From Balneola sp. (GTDB taxonomy: Bacteria > Bacteroidota > Rhodothermia > Balneolales > Balneolaceae): DNA of 64,000 nt. Where the stretch lies: NCBI GenBank assembly GCA_002720745.1, contig PBJO01000004.1, forward strand, positions 3,861 through 67,860. The letters run 5' to 3'. Position numbers and translations under genes: made by a program. The notes below the pieces were generated by a model. The model was not told the origin of the DNA. It did not search any database and worked only from the letters and a program-made list of their open reading frames with translations. Position 1 is the stretch's first letter. Every line of letters starts with the position of its first letter. Positions 52,981-61,607 of this stretch are shown in pieces.

Positions 52981-53709
52981 TTACAAGCGACCAAATAGAC
53001 TCCGAATTTTAAGGGCCCAGACCCTCCAAATAGCCTCTCTAACAATATCTTTCGACATTTTAGACACTCCTTCTTCTCGTTCCCTAAATATAATAGATAC
53101 CTCCCGCAATCTAAAGCCAGCTTTCCAAGCTCTAAAATGAAGTTCTATTTGAAATGCGTATCCATTGGATTTAATTCGGTCCAAAGAAATAGACTCTATA
53201 ACCCGACGATGGATGCATTTAAAGCCTGCGGTGGTATCTTTTACTGGCAGACCCGTTATCCATCTTGCATAAATATTGGCACCATAAGATAAGATAAGAC
53301 GACTCAGAGGCCAATTTACTATGCTTATTCCATTGGCATAGCGTGAACCTATAGCAATATCCGTTTCTCCACTTTGAACGGCTTCTATGAGTCTAGGAAC
53401 ATCTTCTGGTGGATGTGAGAAGTCCGCATCCATTTCACAAACTAGTTCATAGTCATGTTCCAAGGCATATTCAAAACCTCGGACATAGGCCGTCCCTAAA
53501 CCTAATTTACCCTCTCGCTCAACTAAATGTATGCGGTCTGGATTGGTTTGCTGCTGCTCTTTAATTCTCTCTGCCGTACCATCTGGTGATCCATCATCCA
53601 CAAAAAGTATGTCTACCTTCATATTCAAAGCCATAAGTGTATGAATCATTCGTATGGCATTGGTCGCTTCATTGTAGGTCGGGATAATGATTAAAGGATG
53701 TTTCTGCAT
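52981..53709 (-). CDS. Polyprenyl-phosphate glycosyltransferase (Dpm1-like, GT2)
   Basis: 242 residues, a GT-A fold without membrane helices. PLIIIPTYNEATNAIRMI, FVDDGSPDGTAERI (about 36-49), GTAYVRGFEYAL, CEMDADFSHPPEDVP (DAD at 94-96), GSRYANGI and KDTTAGFKCIHRRV are typical of Dpm1-like enzymes that put mannose or glucose on a polyprenyl phosphate. The donor and lipid are not fixed by sequence. It follows the WcaJ-type transferase by 14 bases, so it is probably part of the same envelope-glycan unit. Confidence 0.92.
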   Translation of the reverse strand: MQKHPLIIIPTYNEATNAIRMIHTLMALNMKVDILFVDDGSPDGTAERIKEQQQTNPDRIHLVEREGKLGLGTAYVRGFEYALEHDYELVCEMDADFSHPPEDVPRLIEAVQSGETDIAIGSRYANGISIVNWPLSRLILSYGANIYARWITGLPVKDTTAGFKCIHRRVIESISLDRIKSNGYAFQIELHFRAWKAGFRLREVSIIFREREEGVSKMSKDIVREAIWRVWALKIRSLFGRL

Positions 53710-53723
53710 AGGATTATTTTGGC

Positions 53724-55133
53724 TTACTGACCTTTACCTTTAATCATTGTAATTATTGTATTAATAATAATTTTTATGTCCATACGTAACGAAATATTTT
53801 CAACATAATACAAATCATACTTGGTTTTTTCTTTAACATCATCCAGTGAGGTATCATACTTCCATTTAACCTGAGCCCAACCAGTAATCCCTGGGCGAAC
53901 TCGTAATCTTCGCATATATAATGGGATTTGATTTTTAAACTGTTCTACAAAATGTTCACGTTCGGGTCTAGGTCCTACTAAACTCATTTCGCCTCGAATG
54001 ACATTGTAGAGTTGAGGAAGCTCATCAATACGTAATTTTCGCAACCAATATCCGATTTTTGTAATTCTTGGATCATTTTTTTTTGCCCACATAGGTCCAG
54101 TTTTTCGTTCAGCATCTTGTACCATAGTGCGAAATTTATTGATAACAAAAGGTTTACCATTTCGTCCAACCCGTTCTTGACGAAAAATAACAGGCCCTGG
54201 AGACCCTAAACGAATAAATAGGGCCACTATTAGCAAAAAGGGTGCTAACGCAATCAATACAACCACCGAAATAGTCACATCCATCAATCGCTTAACAGCT
54301 TTCTCCCAAAGCGGCATAGGTTCTGGAGAAATCTCAATAATGGGCATACCAAAAATCTGATTCGTTTTGGATAGACCACTCACAATTTGATAAAAATCAG
54401 GTAACAGCTTTAAACGAACATCCGGATTATCCAGTTTAGAAATAATCTCAACCAAATCTTCTCGGCCATTTGCTTCTACTGCCACCAAGACATCCTGGAC
54501 TTTATACTCGGCGATAATTCGATCAATATCAGAGAGTTGCCCAATCACATCCTCAGGATAAACACCCGATTCAGCATCGGGATCATTTCCATTTACTTGG
54601 ATGTAACCAATTACTTCCATGCCCAAAATTTTGTTACGTATAAGATCATCGAAGGCCATTTTAGCATTTGACCCGGTTCCAACAATTAATGTTCTATGCA
54701 GCCCCCTACCTTGTTGGGCATACAAACGTTGGATAGTTCTAATGACAAAACGATTGGTAATGGTAGCCCCCAAAATAATTGCCCAGTAAGAAAAAATTAG
54801 CCCTTGATGAGTACTGCCCTCAGTAAACAACCAATAATCCAAAATAACGTACAACACCAGCCCTCCCAATACCACAGCTTTTACTACCTGGGTAAATTCA
54901 TCGAGCCTGGAGATCAAATATAAACTCTTGTACAAACCTGATAAGACAAAAACCCCAAGCCAATACCCGCTGAATATTACTCCTGCACTAATCACAGCTA
55001 AGCCAAAATCAGCCAATCGAGGATCTAAATAAGCCGAGAAAAAAAAATGAAAGACGAACCAACTTGCTAATAAAAGCAAGTAATCAAGAGCACTCGTCAG
55101 TATAACTTCACGATATCTTTGCACAGAAAGCAA
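53724..55133 (-). CDS. Undecaprenyl-phosphate sugar phosphotransferase (WcaJ/WbaP-type, polytopic PGT)
   Basis: 469 residues with a TTG start forced by a stop eight codons upstream and no ATG between. Four N-terminal membrane helices, then a nucleotide-binding-like domain (TLIVGTGSNAKMAFDDL, about 145-250), a helix, and the catalytic PF02397 domain with NKFRTMVQDAE (about 331), LRKLRIDELPQLYNVIRGEM (aspartate-glutamate pair about 370), SLVGPRPER and VRPGITGWAQVKW. The enzyme starts repeat-unit or glycan synthesis by moving a sugar-phosphate to undecaprenyl phosphate. All catalytic motifs are intact, unlike the fused gene at 56370. Confidence 0.93.
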   Translation of the reverse strand: MLSVQRYREVILTSALDYLLLLASWFVFHFFFSAYLDPRLADFGLAVISAGVIFSGYWLGVFVLSGLYKSLYLISRLDEFTQVVKAVVLGGLVLYVILDYWLFTEGSTHQGLIFSYWAIILGATITNRFVIRTIQRLYAQQGRGLHRTLIVGTGSNAKMAFDDLIRNKILGMEVIGYIQVNGNDPDAESGVYPEDVIGQLSDIDRIIAEYKVQDVLVAVEANGREDLVEIISKLDNPDVRLKLLPDFYQIVSGLSKTNQIFGMPIIEISPEPMPLWEKAVKRLMDVTISVVVLIALAPFLLIVALFIRLGSPGPVIFRQERVGRNGKPFVINKFRTMVQDAERKTGPMWAKKNDPRITKIGYWLRKLRIDELPQLYNVIRGEMSLVGPRPEREHFVEQFKNQIPLYMRRLRVRPGITGWAQVKWKYDTSLDDVKEKTKYDLYYVENISLRMDIKIIINTIITMIKGKGQ

Positions 55134-56369: not shown

Positions 56370-58466
56370 CTATTTCCAGTTATTACCCGGTTGAAATATA
56401 GACTTCAATAATATGTCCATATCCATACCTAAAGAATAATTTTGCATATAATATAACTGATAATGCTCTGTATCTTGACCCTCCTGAAGCTTCCCCTGAT
56501 TTAACTGTACCAAGCCAGTAAGACCCGGTTTTAGCACCCCTTTTTGATCGTTATTATGTTTAGAATGACTGTTCTGAACTGGAAGATTTGAGCCTATCCA
56601 TGAATAATGTCCATACAGCACACCAACTAAAAATAAACTTCGGTTATGCCACTTATACTTAGCTAATGGCTTTAAAAAATGTTGACCTTTTGGCCGTTTA
56701 ATTTCTGCTAGAAGGGCTAGAGGCCAGAGTAGCGCAATACTAGGTACAGCCAAAGCCAAATCAAAACTCCGTTTGACAAAGCGGTTTATGGGCTTATTTA
56801 ATGCAAGTTCTACATCAATCAGAGGTAAACTTTCGAGATAATCTACTTTTGATTTACCTAAAATAAAGTCCCTACTATCAGGAATGAGCTTACACTGAAC
56901 TGATAGACCTTGCAACGTTGAAATAGCTCGAAGCATCTCTTTGTAGGATAGAGTAGTCAATGAGAATAGTACCTGATCTGCATGATATGCCCTGACTAAA
57001 TCTTTTAACTGACTTAATGAACCAAGAGGGTTTAGTATTACTTTCTGGTTCAGCATATCCTGTTCTATTTCAAGATCCTCGTCCTTACCAACAGTGTTTA
57101 TCTGGACCCAACCTAGTACCTCAACATTCCAATCTGGTCTGGCATGTATTTTAGGTATAAGTTCACAGGCATCTAAATCATTGCCAATGAGAAGTATTTT
57201 CGATTTTTTTATCTGTCCTTTGGCATATATTTGGTTCCGTTTAGCATTTATCTGCAGTAGCTTCAAAACAATCATAAGCGTCACTGAAACCCCAAAACCA
57301 ATTAGCAAAGACAAACGGGAAAAGGCTAGATTTCGTACAAAAAATGTAATAGCGGCAACTCCTAAATAAGAAAATAAAAGAGCCTTTAGAGGAGTGGAAA
57401 TAGAATCAGTTTTATACTGATATAAACCAAAAAGTCCCCCAATTAATAGATAAATTCCAGAGGCTAAAAGATTGATCCAAAGAAACTGAAAAGACTGTAG
57501 ATCACTAAATATTTCAACACTGAATTGAAACCGAATTAAGAAACCTAAAATAATGGAGATATTTAACAGAACTAAATCGGCTGCAATCTGTGAAATTGCT
57601 CTTAAACGACTGAATATGAATGAAAAAATGGTCTTTAACCAAATAGCAGAAAAAATTACTGCTCTAAATAGAGCGCTATATCTAAAGGAATGATGCTTAT
57701 CAAAGAACAAATACATGGCCTTGTTGAAAATTTGAATATAGCGTAAATCCCCCTTTTTTGTACTCTCTCCTTTATAGTGAATAATGGAAGTAAATGGAAC
57801 ATAATCAATATGGTAACTGGTCTCTTGTATACGGTAACAGAGATCAATATCCTCTCCATACATAAAGAAACGTTCATCAAAGCCCCCCATTTGTTGCAAC
57901 AGCTCTGTTCTCCAAAACATAAACGCACCAGATAAGACATTGATCTTTGCCTGTTGATTTTCCGAAAGCCAAGTAAGATAATACTGGCCAAATAAACGCG
58001 ATTTCGGAAATATCGAATGCAAACCCAATAACTTAGTCAATGCAGCCCAAATAGTGGGGACCGAACGTTTAGATTCTGGCGCAAAGCTACCATCGGGATT
58101 GAGAATTTTACAACCAGCAGCGCCACATTCCGGATTTTGTTTCATATGCTCAATAAGGGTAGTAAAGGTATCCTCACTGACCAGGGTATCTGGGTTAATA
58201 ATCAAAGTAAACTCTCCTTTAGCGTCTTTAATCGCCTGATTATTTGCCTTGCTAAACCCCAAATTATCCTCGTTTTCAATATAACTTACGCCTGGGTGCC
58301 GCTGTCGTAAATAAACTACTGAATCATCATCAGAGTCATTATCTACCACAAATATCTGTACCGTGTGTTGACTTGCTGCCTTGTAAATAGAACTGAGTAG
58401 GTTCGAGACGTATTCCTTAACTTTATAGTTTACAATTACTATACTTATATCAATCTTTTTAGCCAT
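56370..58466 (-). CDS. Fusion: GT2 glycosyltransferase + membrane/nucleotide-binding part + degenerate phosphoglycosyl transferase
   Basis: 698 residues. Residues 1-260 are a WbbL-like GT2: DISIVIVNYKVKEYV, VVDNDSDDDSV, LGFSKANNQAI, INPDTLV, MGGFDERFFMYGEDIDLCYR. Residues 260-390 hold about five membrane helices. Residues 400-530 hold a nucleotide-binding-like domain (ILLIGNDLDACEL) as in polytopic PGTs. Residues 540-698 align with PF02397: FVKRSFDLALAVPSIAL, VLYGHYSWIGS, LKPGLTGLVQLNQG and YYMQNYSLGMDMDILLKS. The KFRTM segment is missing and the LDELPQ segment reads NRSLFLV, so the aspartate-glutamate dyad is gone. It shares one base with the preceding GT2 stop. Confidence 0.88.
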   Translation of the reverse strand: MAKKIDISIVIVNYKVKEYVSNLLSSIYKAASQHTVQIFVVDNDSDDDSVVYLRQRHPGVSYIENEDNLGFSKANNQAIKDAKGEFTLIINPDTLVSEDTFTTLIEHMKQNPECGAAGCKILNPDGSFAPESKRSVPTIWAALTKLLGLHSIFPKSRLFGQYYLTWLSENQQAKINVLSGAFMFWRTELLQQMGGFDERFFMYGEDIDLCYRIQETSYHIDYVPFTSIIHYKGESTKKGDLRYIQIFNKAMYLFFDKHHSFRYSALFRAVIFSAIWLKTIFSFIFSRLRAISQIAADLVLLNISIILGFLIRFQFSVEIFSDLQSFQFLWINLLASGIYLLIGGLFGLYQYKTDSISTPLKALLFSYLGVAAITFFVRNLAFSRLSLLIGFGVSVTLMIVLKLLQINAKRNQIYAKGQIKKSKILLIGNDLDACELIPKIHARPDWNVEVLGWVQINTVGKDEDLEIEQDMLNQKVILNPLGSLSQLKDLVRAYHADQVLFSLTTLSYKEMLRAISTLQGLSVQCKLIPDSRDFILGKSKVDYLESLPLIDVELALNKPINRFVKRSFDLALAVPSIALLWPLALLAEIKRPKGQHFLKPLAKYKWHNRSLFLVGVLYGHYSWIGSNLPVQNSHSKHNNDQKGVLKPGLTGLVQLNQGKLQEGQDTEHYQLYYMQNYSLGMDMDILLKSIFQPGNNWK

Positions 58467-59197
58467 TAGACCCCAATCTTATTGAGTAGGTACTCTAGCT
58501 TTGCCCGCCATCCTAAACCATATCCAGTCTTTCTGGCGGTTCCACGCCAGAGATGGTCAATGCTGTTATTCATCGGATAATCTACTAACTGGAATCCATT
58601 CAACCAGGCTTCTCTGAAATTTTGAAGAGTAGGCTGCCCATGATGTACAAAAGGGGAGAACTGAAGATATAATGTCCTATTTACTACCATGTAAGGCGTT
58701 TGCAAAATAATTTGACCTGTTGACTTGCTAGTGCTGAATCCTCGTTTATTCACCCTATTAAACATTCCTACTGCATAATTCTTCTCATCGGATTCCAAAA
58801 GCTCTATTACACTTTCTAAAAAACCCCCTTCTTTTGTTACTGTGTCACTATCTAGAAAAAAAACATACTTTGATTTTACTATCTTTCGTGCTGCAAAGTC
58901 CATAGCTGGGCCGTGATACATATTATTCGGTAGAGGAATCCATTGAGTGTTAAATTGTACGCCAATCCACTCCTGGACCTGATTTACAATGTCCGAGTCT
59001 GACCCATTATCCACTACATATAAAGGGGTTGTGGGGTAAAAATAGTTAAATGATTCAACTGCCTTTTTGAGCAGTTCTGGAGTCTGGTAATGGATAATTA
59101 CCGCACTTAGATCCAACTGCTTAGATGCATCTTCCCGTATTAATGCATCAGTTGATTCTTTTAAACTTGTGATATCTGTCGGCAATTCTTGTTTCAT
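58466..59197 (-). CDS. Family 2 glycosyltransferase
   Basis: 243 residues from the ATG at 59197. A longer frame exists, but this start comes one base after the porZ stop (TGATATG). The GT-A fold shows LSAVIIHYQTPELLKKAV, PLYVVDNGSDSD, a YHGPAMDFAARKI substrate loop and YVFFLDSDTVTKEGGFL, whose DSD binds the metal and sugar nucleotide. The C-terminal part with HLWRGTARKTGYGLGW is less usual. The donor and acceptor are unknown. Its stop overlaps the start of the fused transferase gene by one base (TAATG), so the three genes form a tight operon. Confidence 0.9.
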   Translation of the reverse strand: MKQELPTDITSLKESTDALIREDASKQLDLSAVIIHYQTPELLKKAVESFNYFYPTTPLYVVDNGSDSDIVNQVQEWIGVQFNTQWIPLPNNMYHGPAMDFAARKIVKSKYVFFLDSDTVTKEGGFLESVIELLESDEKNYAVGMFNRVNKRGFSTSKSTGQIILQTPYMVVNRTLYLQFSPFVHHGQPTLQNFREAWLNGFQLVDYPMNNSIDHLWRGTARKTGYGLGWRAKLEYLLNKIGV

Positions 59198-59198
59198 A

Positions 59199-61607
59199 TC
59201 ATTGTATAATAACAACTTTACCAACGCCGCGCTCACCTTTGCTCACATCCCAGGCCACTAAAAAATAAACACCACTACTAAATTTTTGACCATTTGAATT
59301 ATACCCGTCCCATTGCGCACGACCACCACGAGGTTGCAATTCATGCACTACATTCCCACCCGAGTTAAGTACTCGTATCCGTGTAGATTGGCTTAAATTT
59401 TCAATTATAATTCGCTCATGTTGATCATACAAAAAGGGATTAGGATAGACCTTCAATGATCCCATTTTAGCCTTTGGGGATTGTGCTATATCAATAAAAC
59501 TTACCAATCCCCTATCGGTTGCTACAAATACTTCACCTGATTCTTCATTTATAGCAATGGATAAAATGTTATTTGAAATCAGTGGACTATTCTCTTCAGT
59601 ATAACGCTTAAGAATTGTACTCCCTTCCTCATTTAACAACCATAATCCTTGATTAATACTACCAATCCATTTCTGATTAGCTCCATTGATTGCCATAGCA
59701 CTAACGTTAATATCACGCAATAAATACCTCGATAAAGCCGAGGTATCTTCATTTAATAACCACTGAGATTGACGTTCGGATGACTGTTGACTGTCTATGA
59801 TAAACCGAGGGAATAGAAAGCGAGCAATCCCCCTAGCCGTGCCAATCCAAACTTCCCCATTCTTGTCTTCCAAAAAGGCATTAACTTTATTATCCGGTAA
59901 ATTACCATTACTTGCAGATGTAGTCAGTTTAACTCCTTGGTTGTCTTGAAGATCAGTTGGATCATTGGTATCAAGTATTAATAAACCCGTTCCATCACCT
60001 GTTGAACTTTGAAGGGAAATCCACTTATTATCATTAGAGTCGGTGAATAAATTAACATATTCATCAAGTGTATTTACTGCGTTATCTTTTGCATGAGCTA
60101 ACCAAGTATCCTGATTTGGTTCATAGACATACAACGGTTCAGATCCATACCGGCTAACCAGCCAAACCCGATCTTTAATATCTGCAGATAAACCAGAAAT
60201 CACCGTATATTCCGGATTATCAGCTTCCCAACCCCGGATGGTACTGTTATATGCATTATATATTTGTATCGCATTGGTTGTTTTGTTGTGCTTAACTACT
60301 CCACTTCCCCAAGATCCAATAAAATAATGAGAATTATTTTGGGCTGTTGTAAAGGCTTGTTTGAAGTTCTCTTGATCTAACAATTCAGTATTTTGGGCAT
60401 TAAAGCTTATCCAAGAACTATCCTGAAAAAAAGAATAACCTTTTGATCGGTCAAGGATTCTGTTACCTATAACATTATTAGAAGACGCAGAAAATAAGCG
60501 CCCATCAGACCAATCCAACCCAGTAAAAAAATTAGTATAAGGACCAATAGGTACAAATTGATCCCATTCTGATGGGCTAGTAAATACCAATAAACCCAAA
60601 TCAGTCGTTCCCATGAGCAATTGATCATATAACATAGTACTAGTACGAATACCTCGAACATTTTCAACTCTATAAATCTTGGTAGGTGTATATGTTGATC
60701 GACGCATTATTCTATTATTAAAAACCAACATCAGATCTTGGCCGTCTCCCTGGCGTACAATATCTAATGATTGAAGATAGTTTACTCCTTCTTCTTTTAG
60801 CCAATTATCACCATTGAAGTGATATAATGACTCCTGTACAACAGCATATTCCCCACTATTAAAAAAACAAACGTCTTGTATAAAATTAGAAGGGAGACCG
60901 TCGACCGTAGTAAATACGATCCAAGATTCACGGATTAGCAAATTATCATTCAAATTAGCCCTAACGACTCCATGCGATGTAGCAGCTATTAATTCGTCAT
61001 CAAAAATATCTAAGGCATAAATTGGTGTACCACGATCAAGATTACCTAATCCTATATAGCTTTGCTGCACGTATAAGTCATCTATATTTAATTCAATAAT
61101 TCCAAAATCTGTAGCTATAAATAAAACATCATCATGAACAACAAAATCACGGATAAATTTTGACGGATACTGATCAACTCTGAGTATATCCGTAATAGTT
61201 TGTATGGAAGAATATTCTATGTTATACACATCAATTGCGCCATCCATATATCCTAAAAATAATTGCTTTGATGGCGAATGATAGGCTAGCTTTTGAATAT
61301 CCAAACGATGAAGACCGTCCATGGTTGTTAAAGTGCTACTGATTCCTACTGGATCTGTAATAACAAGGCCACCCTGAGTTGCAACAAATCTATAGTTTTG
61401 ATCAGTCACAATAATATCATTGACAGTGGAAAAGGAGGAATAGACCCGCCATTCATCAATTACTTGTGCATTTATGGAATTAAAACTCAATGATAAAACC
61501 CAACAAAGAATTACGGACATAACAAGTAGTTGAGTGAGATCCAATATTCTCTTAATTAGATATTTATCTGATAGTATTTCTTTCGTTTTATTTAATTGAA
61601 CAAGCAT
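59199..61607 (-). CDS. porZ: PorZ-like beta-propeller protein of the type IX secretion system
   Basis: 802 residues. A signal peptide (LLVMSVILCWVLSLSFNSINAQ, read here as the 22-residue hydrophobic stretch near 29-49 ending INAQ) is followed by two beta-propellers built of two-component-regulator-type repeats: FVATQGGLVITDP, LAYHSPSKQLFLGYMDGAID, LFIATDFGIIELNID, EVWIGTARGIARF and EVFVATDRGLVSFID. The C-terminal 85 residues have LKVYPNPF, AQWDGYNSNGQKFSSGVYFL and a KVVIIQ end, the T9SS-type sorting domain. In Porphyromonas PorZ sits on the cell surface, works with sortase PorU and binds A-LPS. It leads an operon with two glycosyltransferase genes. Confidence 0.87.
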   Translation of the reverse strand: MLVQLNKTKEILSDKYLIKRILDLTQLLVMSVILCWVLSLSFNSINAQVIDEWRVYSSFSTVNDIIVTDQNYRFVATQGGLVITDPVGISSTLTTMDGLHRLDIQKLAYHSPSKQLFLGYMDGAIDVYNIEYSSIQTITDILRVDQYPSKFIRDFVVHDDVLFIATDFGIIELNIDDLYVQQSYIGLGNLDRGTPIYALDIFDDELIAATSHGVVRANLNDNLLIRESWIVFTTVDGLPSNFIQDVCFFNSGEYAVVQESLYHFNGDNWLKEEGVNYLQSLDIVRQGDGQDLMLVFNNRIMRRSTYTPTKIYRVENVRGIRTSTMLYDQLLMGTTDLGLLVFTSPSEWDQFVPIGPYTNFFTGLDWSDGRLFSASSNNVIGNRILDRSKGYSFFQDSSWISFNAQNTELLDQENFKQAFTTAQNNSHYFIGSWGSGVVKHNKTTNAIQIYNAYNSTIRGWEADNPEYTVISGLSADIKDRVWLVSRYGSEPLYVYEPNQDTWLAHAKDNAVNTLDEYVNLFTDSNDNKWISLQSSTGDGTGLLILDTNDPTDLQDNQGVKLTTSASNGNLPDNKVNAFLEDKNGEVWIGTARGIARFLFPRFIIDSQQSSERQSQWLLNEDTSALSRYLLRDINVSAMAINGANQKWIGSINQGLWLLNEEGSTILKRYTEENSPLISNNILSIAINEESGEVFVATDRGLVSFIDIAQSPKAKMGSLKVYPNPFLYDQHERIIIENLSQSTRIRVLNSGGNVVHELQPRGGRAQWDGYNSNGQKFSSGVYFLVAWDVSKGERGVGKVVIIQ

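Follow-up and report, generated by a model that had tools for sequence, protein, structure and literature searches.

The window, a 64,000-nucleotide stretch of DNA from Balneola sp., contains an ORF that is best explained, going by its sequence and those of its homologues, as an old fusion of a GT2 glycosyltransferase to a complete large phosphoglycosyl transferase (Lg-PGT) whose transferase site was lost afterwards. The PGT part is almost certainly catalytically dead. The fusion is a candidate builder of the surface anchor of T9SS-secreted proteins, and the explanation of the whole that we lean towards is a GT2 step in the synthesis of the T9SS-anchor glycan, with the dead PGT acting as a scaffold. 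The features discussed are listed in Table 1.

Table 1. Features of the fusion ORF and of its neighborhood, with positions in the window (residues are those of the fusion unless stated otherwise).
Feature	Position	Strand	Basis
GT2–pseudo-Lg-PGT fusion, 698 aa	56370..58466	(-)	ORF; full-length homologues across many genomes
GT2 domain, residues 1-258; motifs NPD (91-93) and GEDID (204-208)	57693..58466	(-)	PF13641/PF00535
Membrane helices, residues 262-412, N-terminal bundle of Lg-PGT type	57231..57683	(-)	TIGR03025/TIGR03023, AF2 models
PF13727 DUF, Rossmann-like, residues 420-533	56868..57209	(-)	Pfam; 3nkl structure match
Hairpin motif FILGKSKVDYLESLPLIDVE, residues 534-553, between DUF and PGT	56808..56867	(-)	Alignment, predicted strands
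PF02397 shell, predicted catalytically dead, residues 555-691	56394..56804	(-)	Pfam 613-691; PglC 8g1n match
N608-R609, position of the catalytic Asp-Glu dyad	56640..56645	(-)	Profile-profile alignment, anchored count
Intact Lg-PGT; KFRTM 333, DELPQ 370, GPRP 387 (own numbering)	53724..55133	(-)	TIGR03025 438 bits, PF02397 237 bits
DPM1-like GT2; operon neighbor of the fusion in other phyla	52981..53709	(-)	Synteny
Second GT2, 256 aa; its end coincides with the start of the fusion; kept in close relatives	58466..59236	(-)	Pfam
PorZ-like T9SS protein, 802 aa	59199..61607	(-)	PF21544 6e-19

The initial annotation of this ORF described a full GT2 at its front, and a Pfam match to residues 7–237 (E 7e-21) bears this out. 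The domain has a GT-A fold with NPD/DxD-like and ED motifs. Both NPD and GEDID are invariant in a 30-row alignment, and the domain looks intact and working. Behind it, residues 362–529 match CoA_binding_3 (PF13727, E 3e-9), and the NCBIfam Lg-PGT models TIGR03025 and TIGR03023 cover residues 296–587, so the membrane and nucleotide-binding-like parts do remain, as had been stated. Residues 613–691 match PF02397 (40 bits, cut-off 27) at model positions 94–175 only, which leaves the half of the model with the KFR segment and the dyad unmatched. The assignment of the C-terminal part to PF02397 therefore stands, but its extent does not. Taken together, the PF13727, PF02397, and NCBIfam matches indicate that an entire Lg-PGT is fused to the GT2, including the N-terminal membrane bundle and the DUF that define this architecture, and not just a PGT-like last third. 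The hairpin motif is placed like the dimer-swap hairpin of WbaP and is conserved in the alignment. Its strands are predicted at residues 534–536 and 541–543 in the full-length model, and at 280–283 and 286–290 in the numbering of the model of residues 262–698.

The PGT segments of the fusions were aligned, profile to profile, to intact PGTs from the fetched loci (99.9%, E 1e-30). K-W-H-N-R-S-L-F-L of the fusion aligns to L-R-I-D-E-L-P-Q-L of the intact PGTs, which places Asn608-Arg609 at the Asp-Glu dyad of DELPQ. SNL takes the place of the PRP motif, and the KFRTM region falls for the most part in a gap, deleted or unmatched. The dyad position was then counted with the G..S.VG motif as an anchor; seven fusions without the anchor were left out. 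All 25 intact PGTs have DE there, but not one of the 59 anchored fusion homologues does; their pairs are NR, GL, GF, KW, and others. The loss or replacement of the KFRTM and DELPQ segments claimed for this ORF is thus confirmed. Of the features of a catalytic monotopic PGT, the dyad, KFR(T/S)M, and PRP are lacking, and the fold with its re-entrant helix and PGxTG segment is present. With no dyad in its PGT half, the protein is not a bifunctional PGT-GT, in which both domains would be catalytic.

AlphaFold2 models have a pLDDT of 79.8 at full length and 78.9 for residues 262–698. The full-length fold search was dominated by GT2 structures, with GT-A matches such as 6p61 (Z 24.2) and WbaP 8t53 ninth (Foldseek), and was rerun with residues 262–698. 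PglC 8g1n and WbaP 8t53 were the top structural matches of this segment. The PGT shell (model residues 294–434) matches 8g1n with a Z of 12.3 and an rmsd of 2.8 over 134 aligned residues. The match of the whole segment to 8t53 has a Z of 12.2 over 331 residues, with an rmsd of 17.2 that is probably due to differing domain placement. The DUF (model residues 159–294) matches 3nkl with a Z of 10.8. Foldseek E-values for the segment are weak, the best being 1.2e-3, to PglC. From the PglC and WbaP matches, the PGT fold is predicted to persist although the dyad, KFR, and PRP are gone. An overlay on a WcaJ/PglC model had been proposed together with the original description; the structure matches show a PGT fold, and the alignment puts NR at the dyad position. 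A helix is predicted from residue 605, and in PglC the corresponding helix has the dyad at its start.

A survey for the same fusion, also proposed at the outset, extends it to several phyla. Full-length homologues occur in Balneolota, Calditrichota, Marinimicrobia, one Ignavibacteriales genome, and Saprospiraceae/Chitinophagales, and the range also takes in Rhodothermales, Ignavibacteria-like lineages, and Bacteroidota. Of the 117 Rhodothermia genomes, 85 carry a match, which is mostly full-length and almost always single-copy. Many more families of the phylum have the fusion, and the dyad is missing from the members sampled there too. A GT2 tree, which has a midpoint root and many weakly supported forks, places fused forms of several phyla near the base, follows species groups, and nests the reduced forms in Bacteroidota. 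Between the window fusion and L004, the closest pair (most other pairs are saturated at synonymous sites), the dN/dS values are 0.092 (GT2), 0.085 (membrane part), 0.166 (DUF), and 0.090 (PGT shell). Constraint on the PGT shell thus resembles that on the GT2, and the DUF is not the most slowly evolving part in this pair. The loss of the site is not local decay, because DE is absent from all 59 homologues, dN/dS is close to 0.09, and several phyla share the fusion. The same dN/dS and the depth of conservation led us to reject a recent pseudogene. A sequencing or assembly artefact was rejected because many independent assemblies have this architecture, including that of the isolate Gracilimonas mengyeensis DSM 21985 (L008).

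Erosion or loss affects the PGT part more often than any other (Rhodothermales, Saprospiraceae, Bacteroidota). Its shell is more eroded in Rhodothermales, Saprospiraceae, and Chitinophagales, and in L029 and L039 the membrane part and DUF are present and the PGT is gone. Many Bacteroidota proteins of about 380–410 amino acids (L036–L075) and two Rhodothermia proteins (L111 and L106) consist of a GT2 and a short tail. L018 is a GT2 alone. As the genomes of L111, L106, and L018 have an Lg-PGT in addition to these reduced forms, the bundle and the dead PGT are dispensable there. The Bacteroidota short forms lie in the same GT2 clade as the fusion but, unlike it, have neither membrane bundle nor PGT shell. 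A DUF profile built from full fusions matches 15 of the short tails at E < 1e-3 (13 from Bacteroidota and 2 from Rhodothermia), mostly over its second half (about positions 65–117 of 119), with the hairpin motif included. The PGT profile matches none of the short tails (best E 0.29). Since the DUF remnant survives where bundle and PGT are gone, the DUF end with its hairpin is the part most often kept, and the retained core looks like the DUF and not the PGT part. The earlier proposal of a docking module is compatible with this evidence as far as docking goes, but its placement in the PGT part is at odds with the frequent loss of that part and the survival of the DUF remnant. The tails of L036–L075 often end in a GS.SK motif, and those of L036 and L111 are not seen by Pfam.

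The intact Lg-PGT of the window lies two genes away from the fusion, and the two are 22% identical. The gene order in Balneolota is PorZ, GT2, fusion, tgt, Lg-PGT, DPM1, accA, and thioesterase. Several other families have the order Lg-PGT, a further gene, DPM1, fusion, accA, and thioesterase, and in Rhodothermales the co-occurring genes are not adjacent to the fusion. Across the lineages surveyed, the fusion often shares an operon with an intact Lg-PGT. The intact Lg-PGT of the window is a candidate partner of the fusion. A small PGT (PF02397, 210 bits) is located on another contig of the same genome (G000:C5:92313-92882).

Co-occurrence was scored in the 117 Rhodothermia genomes, 85 with the fusion in long or short form and 32 without. 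PorU is over its cut-off in 85 of 85 and 0 of 32, respectively. The same counts are obtained for the Lg-PGT at TIGR03025 E <= 1e-109, a threshold picked after the scores were seen. Full-length matches to this model reach at least about 425 bits with the fusion and at most 360.5 bits without it; two partial matches near 369 bits are close to the line, and many fusion-free genomes carry weaker matches or small PGTs. PorZ passes its cut-off in 82 fusion genomes and in none of the others (both/fusion only/other only/neither, 82/3/0/32). Two controls do not discriminate: SprA is present in 117 of 117 genomes, and DPM1 in all 26 genomes tested, with or without the fusion. A link to DPM1 was accordingly rejected, although it is an operon neighbor. 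GldM (TIGR03517), tried as a marker for the remainder of the T9SS, is over its cut-off in 0 of 117 Rhodothermia genomes, as the model does not recognize GldM in this class, and it carries no information here. The losses of the fusion map to a single genome of genus g5, to the genera g7, g9, and g12, and to family f12. These amount to about three to four independent losses, and the Fisher values (about 2e-29) therefore overstate the co-occurrence. All 48 long fusions from other classes of the phylum come from PorU-positive genomes, as do 11 of the 14 short forms; three short-form genomes have no PorU, and 12 PorU-positive genomes outside Rhodothermia have no recognized form of the fusion. The co-occurrence shows a shared pathway, not contact. 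SprA without PorU over its cut-off is found in 32 of the 117 Rhodothermia genomes.

The T9SS sortase PorU attaches cargo to A-LPS. The A-LPS-specific transferases of P. gingivalis include WbaP and GtfC, which are proposed to add the first two linker sugars (PMC13086638, PMC7468200). Because the fusion is constantly accompanied by an Lg-PGT of WbaP type and by PorU in Rhodothermia (85/85 vs 0/32), it fits the place of GtfC. Like the rhamnosyltransferase-like GT2 enzymes and GtfC, its GT2 probably acts after a WbaP-type initiator, and co-occurrence is what ties it to the T9SS. The likeness proposed here is one of role, and GtfC is not known to carry a dead PGT.

From the architecture, dyad loss, conservation, purifying selection, synteny, and co-occurrence, we infer the following pathway, step, and scaffold role. 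The intact Lg-PGT nearby would start a lipid-linked glycan on undecaprenyl phosphate, and the GT2 of the fusion would add the following sugar, most likely the second. The finished glycan would be the anchor to which PorU joins T9SS cargo, comparable to the A-LPS of Porphyromonas, where WbaP is followed by GtfC. The dead PGT part would keep the GT2 at the membrane and dimerize through the DUF hairpin, possibly with the active Lg-PGT, whose product would be handed over; this heterodimer is the least certain step. That the GT2 belongs to the same lipid-linked pathway as the Lg-PGT is highly probable, and that this pathway serves T9SS anchoring is probable. A scaffold acting through DUF dimerization is reasonably plausible, while the live Lg-PGT as the dimerization partner is suggested only tentatively. 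A dead initiator that is fused to the second enzyme of a pathway, and that heterodimerizes with its live paralogue to couple initiation to the next step of the T9SS-anchor glycan across the Fibrobacterota-Chlorobiota-Bacteroidota group, is a speculative proposal and taken jointly a somewhat unlikely one.

The role of the dead PGT part is most simply membrane attachment plus dimerization. It could be a mere anchor or homodimer module, slowly decaying and with no specific partner, so that only the GT2 is needed. The progressively eroded PGTs of Rhodothermales and Saprospiraceae, the loss of bundle and PGT in Bacteroidota, L111, and L106, and the lone GT2 of L018 agree with this, as does WbaP, which is itself a homodimer formed through a domain-swapped DUF hairpin (PMC10942596). 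Most Rhodothermia genomes, however, keep the full length, the pair tested is under purifying selection, and an Lg-PGT always accompanies the fusion; we regard this reading as doubtful. A regulatory role, with the DUF sensing UMP or UDP-sugars and adjusting the GT2 to the rate at which glycans are initiated, would suit the retention of the DUF in reduced forms. The DUF of WbaP binds uridine nucleotides, and UMP inhibits the enzyme (PMC10942596). Several reduced tails match just the second half of the DUF profile, though, and this half may not bind a nucleotide, which makes regulation quite improbable.

The PGT shell might instead bind the polyprenyl-diphosphate acceptor for the GT2, as the initial annotation suggested. 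The re-entrant helix (KR..D), PGLTG..Q, and Y..NYS..D are kept in Balneolota, Ignavibacteria-like lineages, Calditrichota, and Marinimicrobia, and acceptor-lipid binding is possible in lineages that have the helix and the PGLTG segment. The same elements are eroded or lost in many relatives with a functional-looking GT2, and as a general account acceptor binding is unlikely. Activity of the PGT part through migrated residues is extremely improbable: no support for it was found, the PF02397 match is confined to the positions given above, the dyad position is never DE, and no conserved acidic pair was seen in the aligned PGT segment of the fusions. Synthesis of the conserved core of general O-glycans (PMC12871550) was also considered, and the exact match with PorU favors the T9SS reading over it.

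Compared with the Lg-PGTs WbaP and WcaJ (PF13727 and PF02397), the fusion shares the membrane bundle, the DUF with its hairpin, and the PGT fold. It differs in having no KFR segment, Asp-Glu dyad, or PRP, and in the GT2 joined in front. As in the bifunctional monoPGTs (Bi-PGT, PMC10942596), a functional domain is joined to a monoPGT, but here the PGT domain appears dead and is of the large form. No description of a GT2–dead-PGT fusion was found in the open-access literature searched, and the initial annotation likewise knew of no case with this exact combination. Outside Porphyromonas, where little is known of the glycan pathway, the fusion provides a widely conserved, single-copy candidate for an enzyme of the T9SS anchor. 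If the scaffold reading is true, it is also a naturally occurring phosphoglycosyl transferase that is dead yet retained as a scaffold.

Fusions of another kind were seen in the fetched loci. In three Calditrichota loci (L017:3488-6001, L024:2604-5147, and L030:3521-6007), a WecA-like polytopic PGT (PF00953) immediately next to the GT2 fusion carries a fused Lg-PGT shell. The Asp-Glu dyad of this shell is replaced with Tyr-Lys and its KFR is changed, which by sequence makes it a second kind of dead monotopic PGT kept beside the GT2 fusion. L112 (8623-11103, minus strand) also encodes a WecA-like PGT fused to an Lg-PGT, with the LDE dyad intact, which puts two initiating enzymes in one chain.
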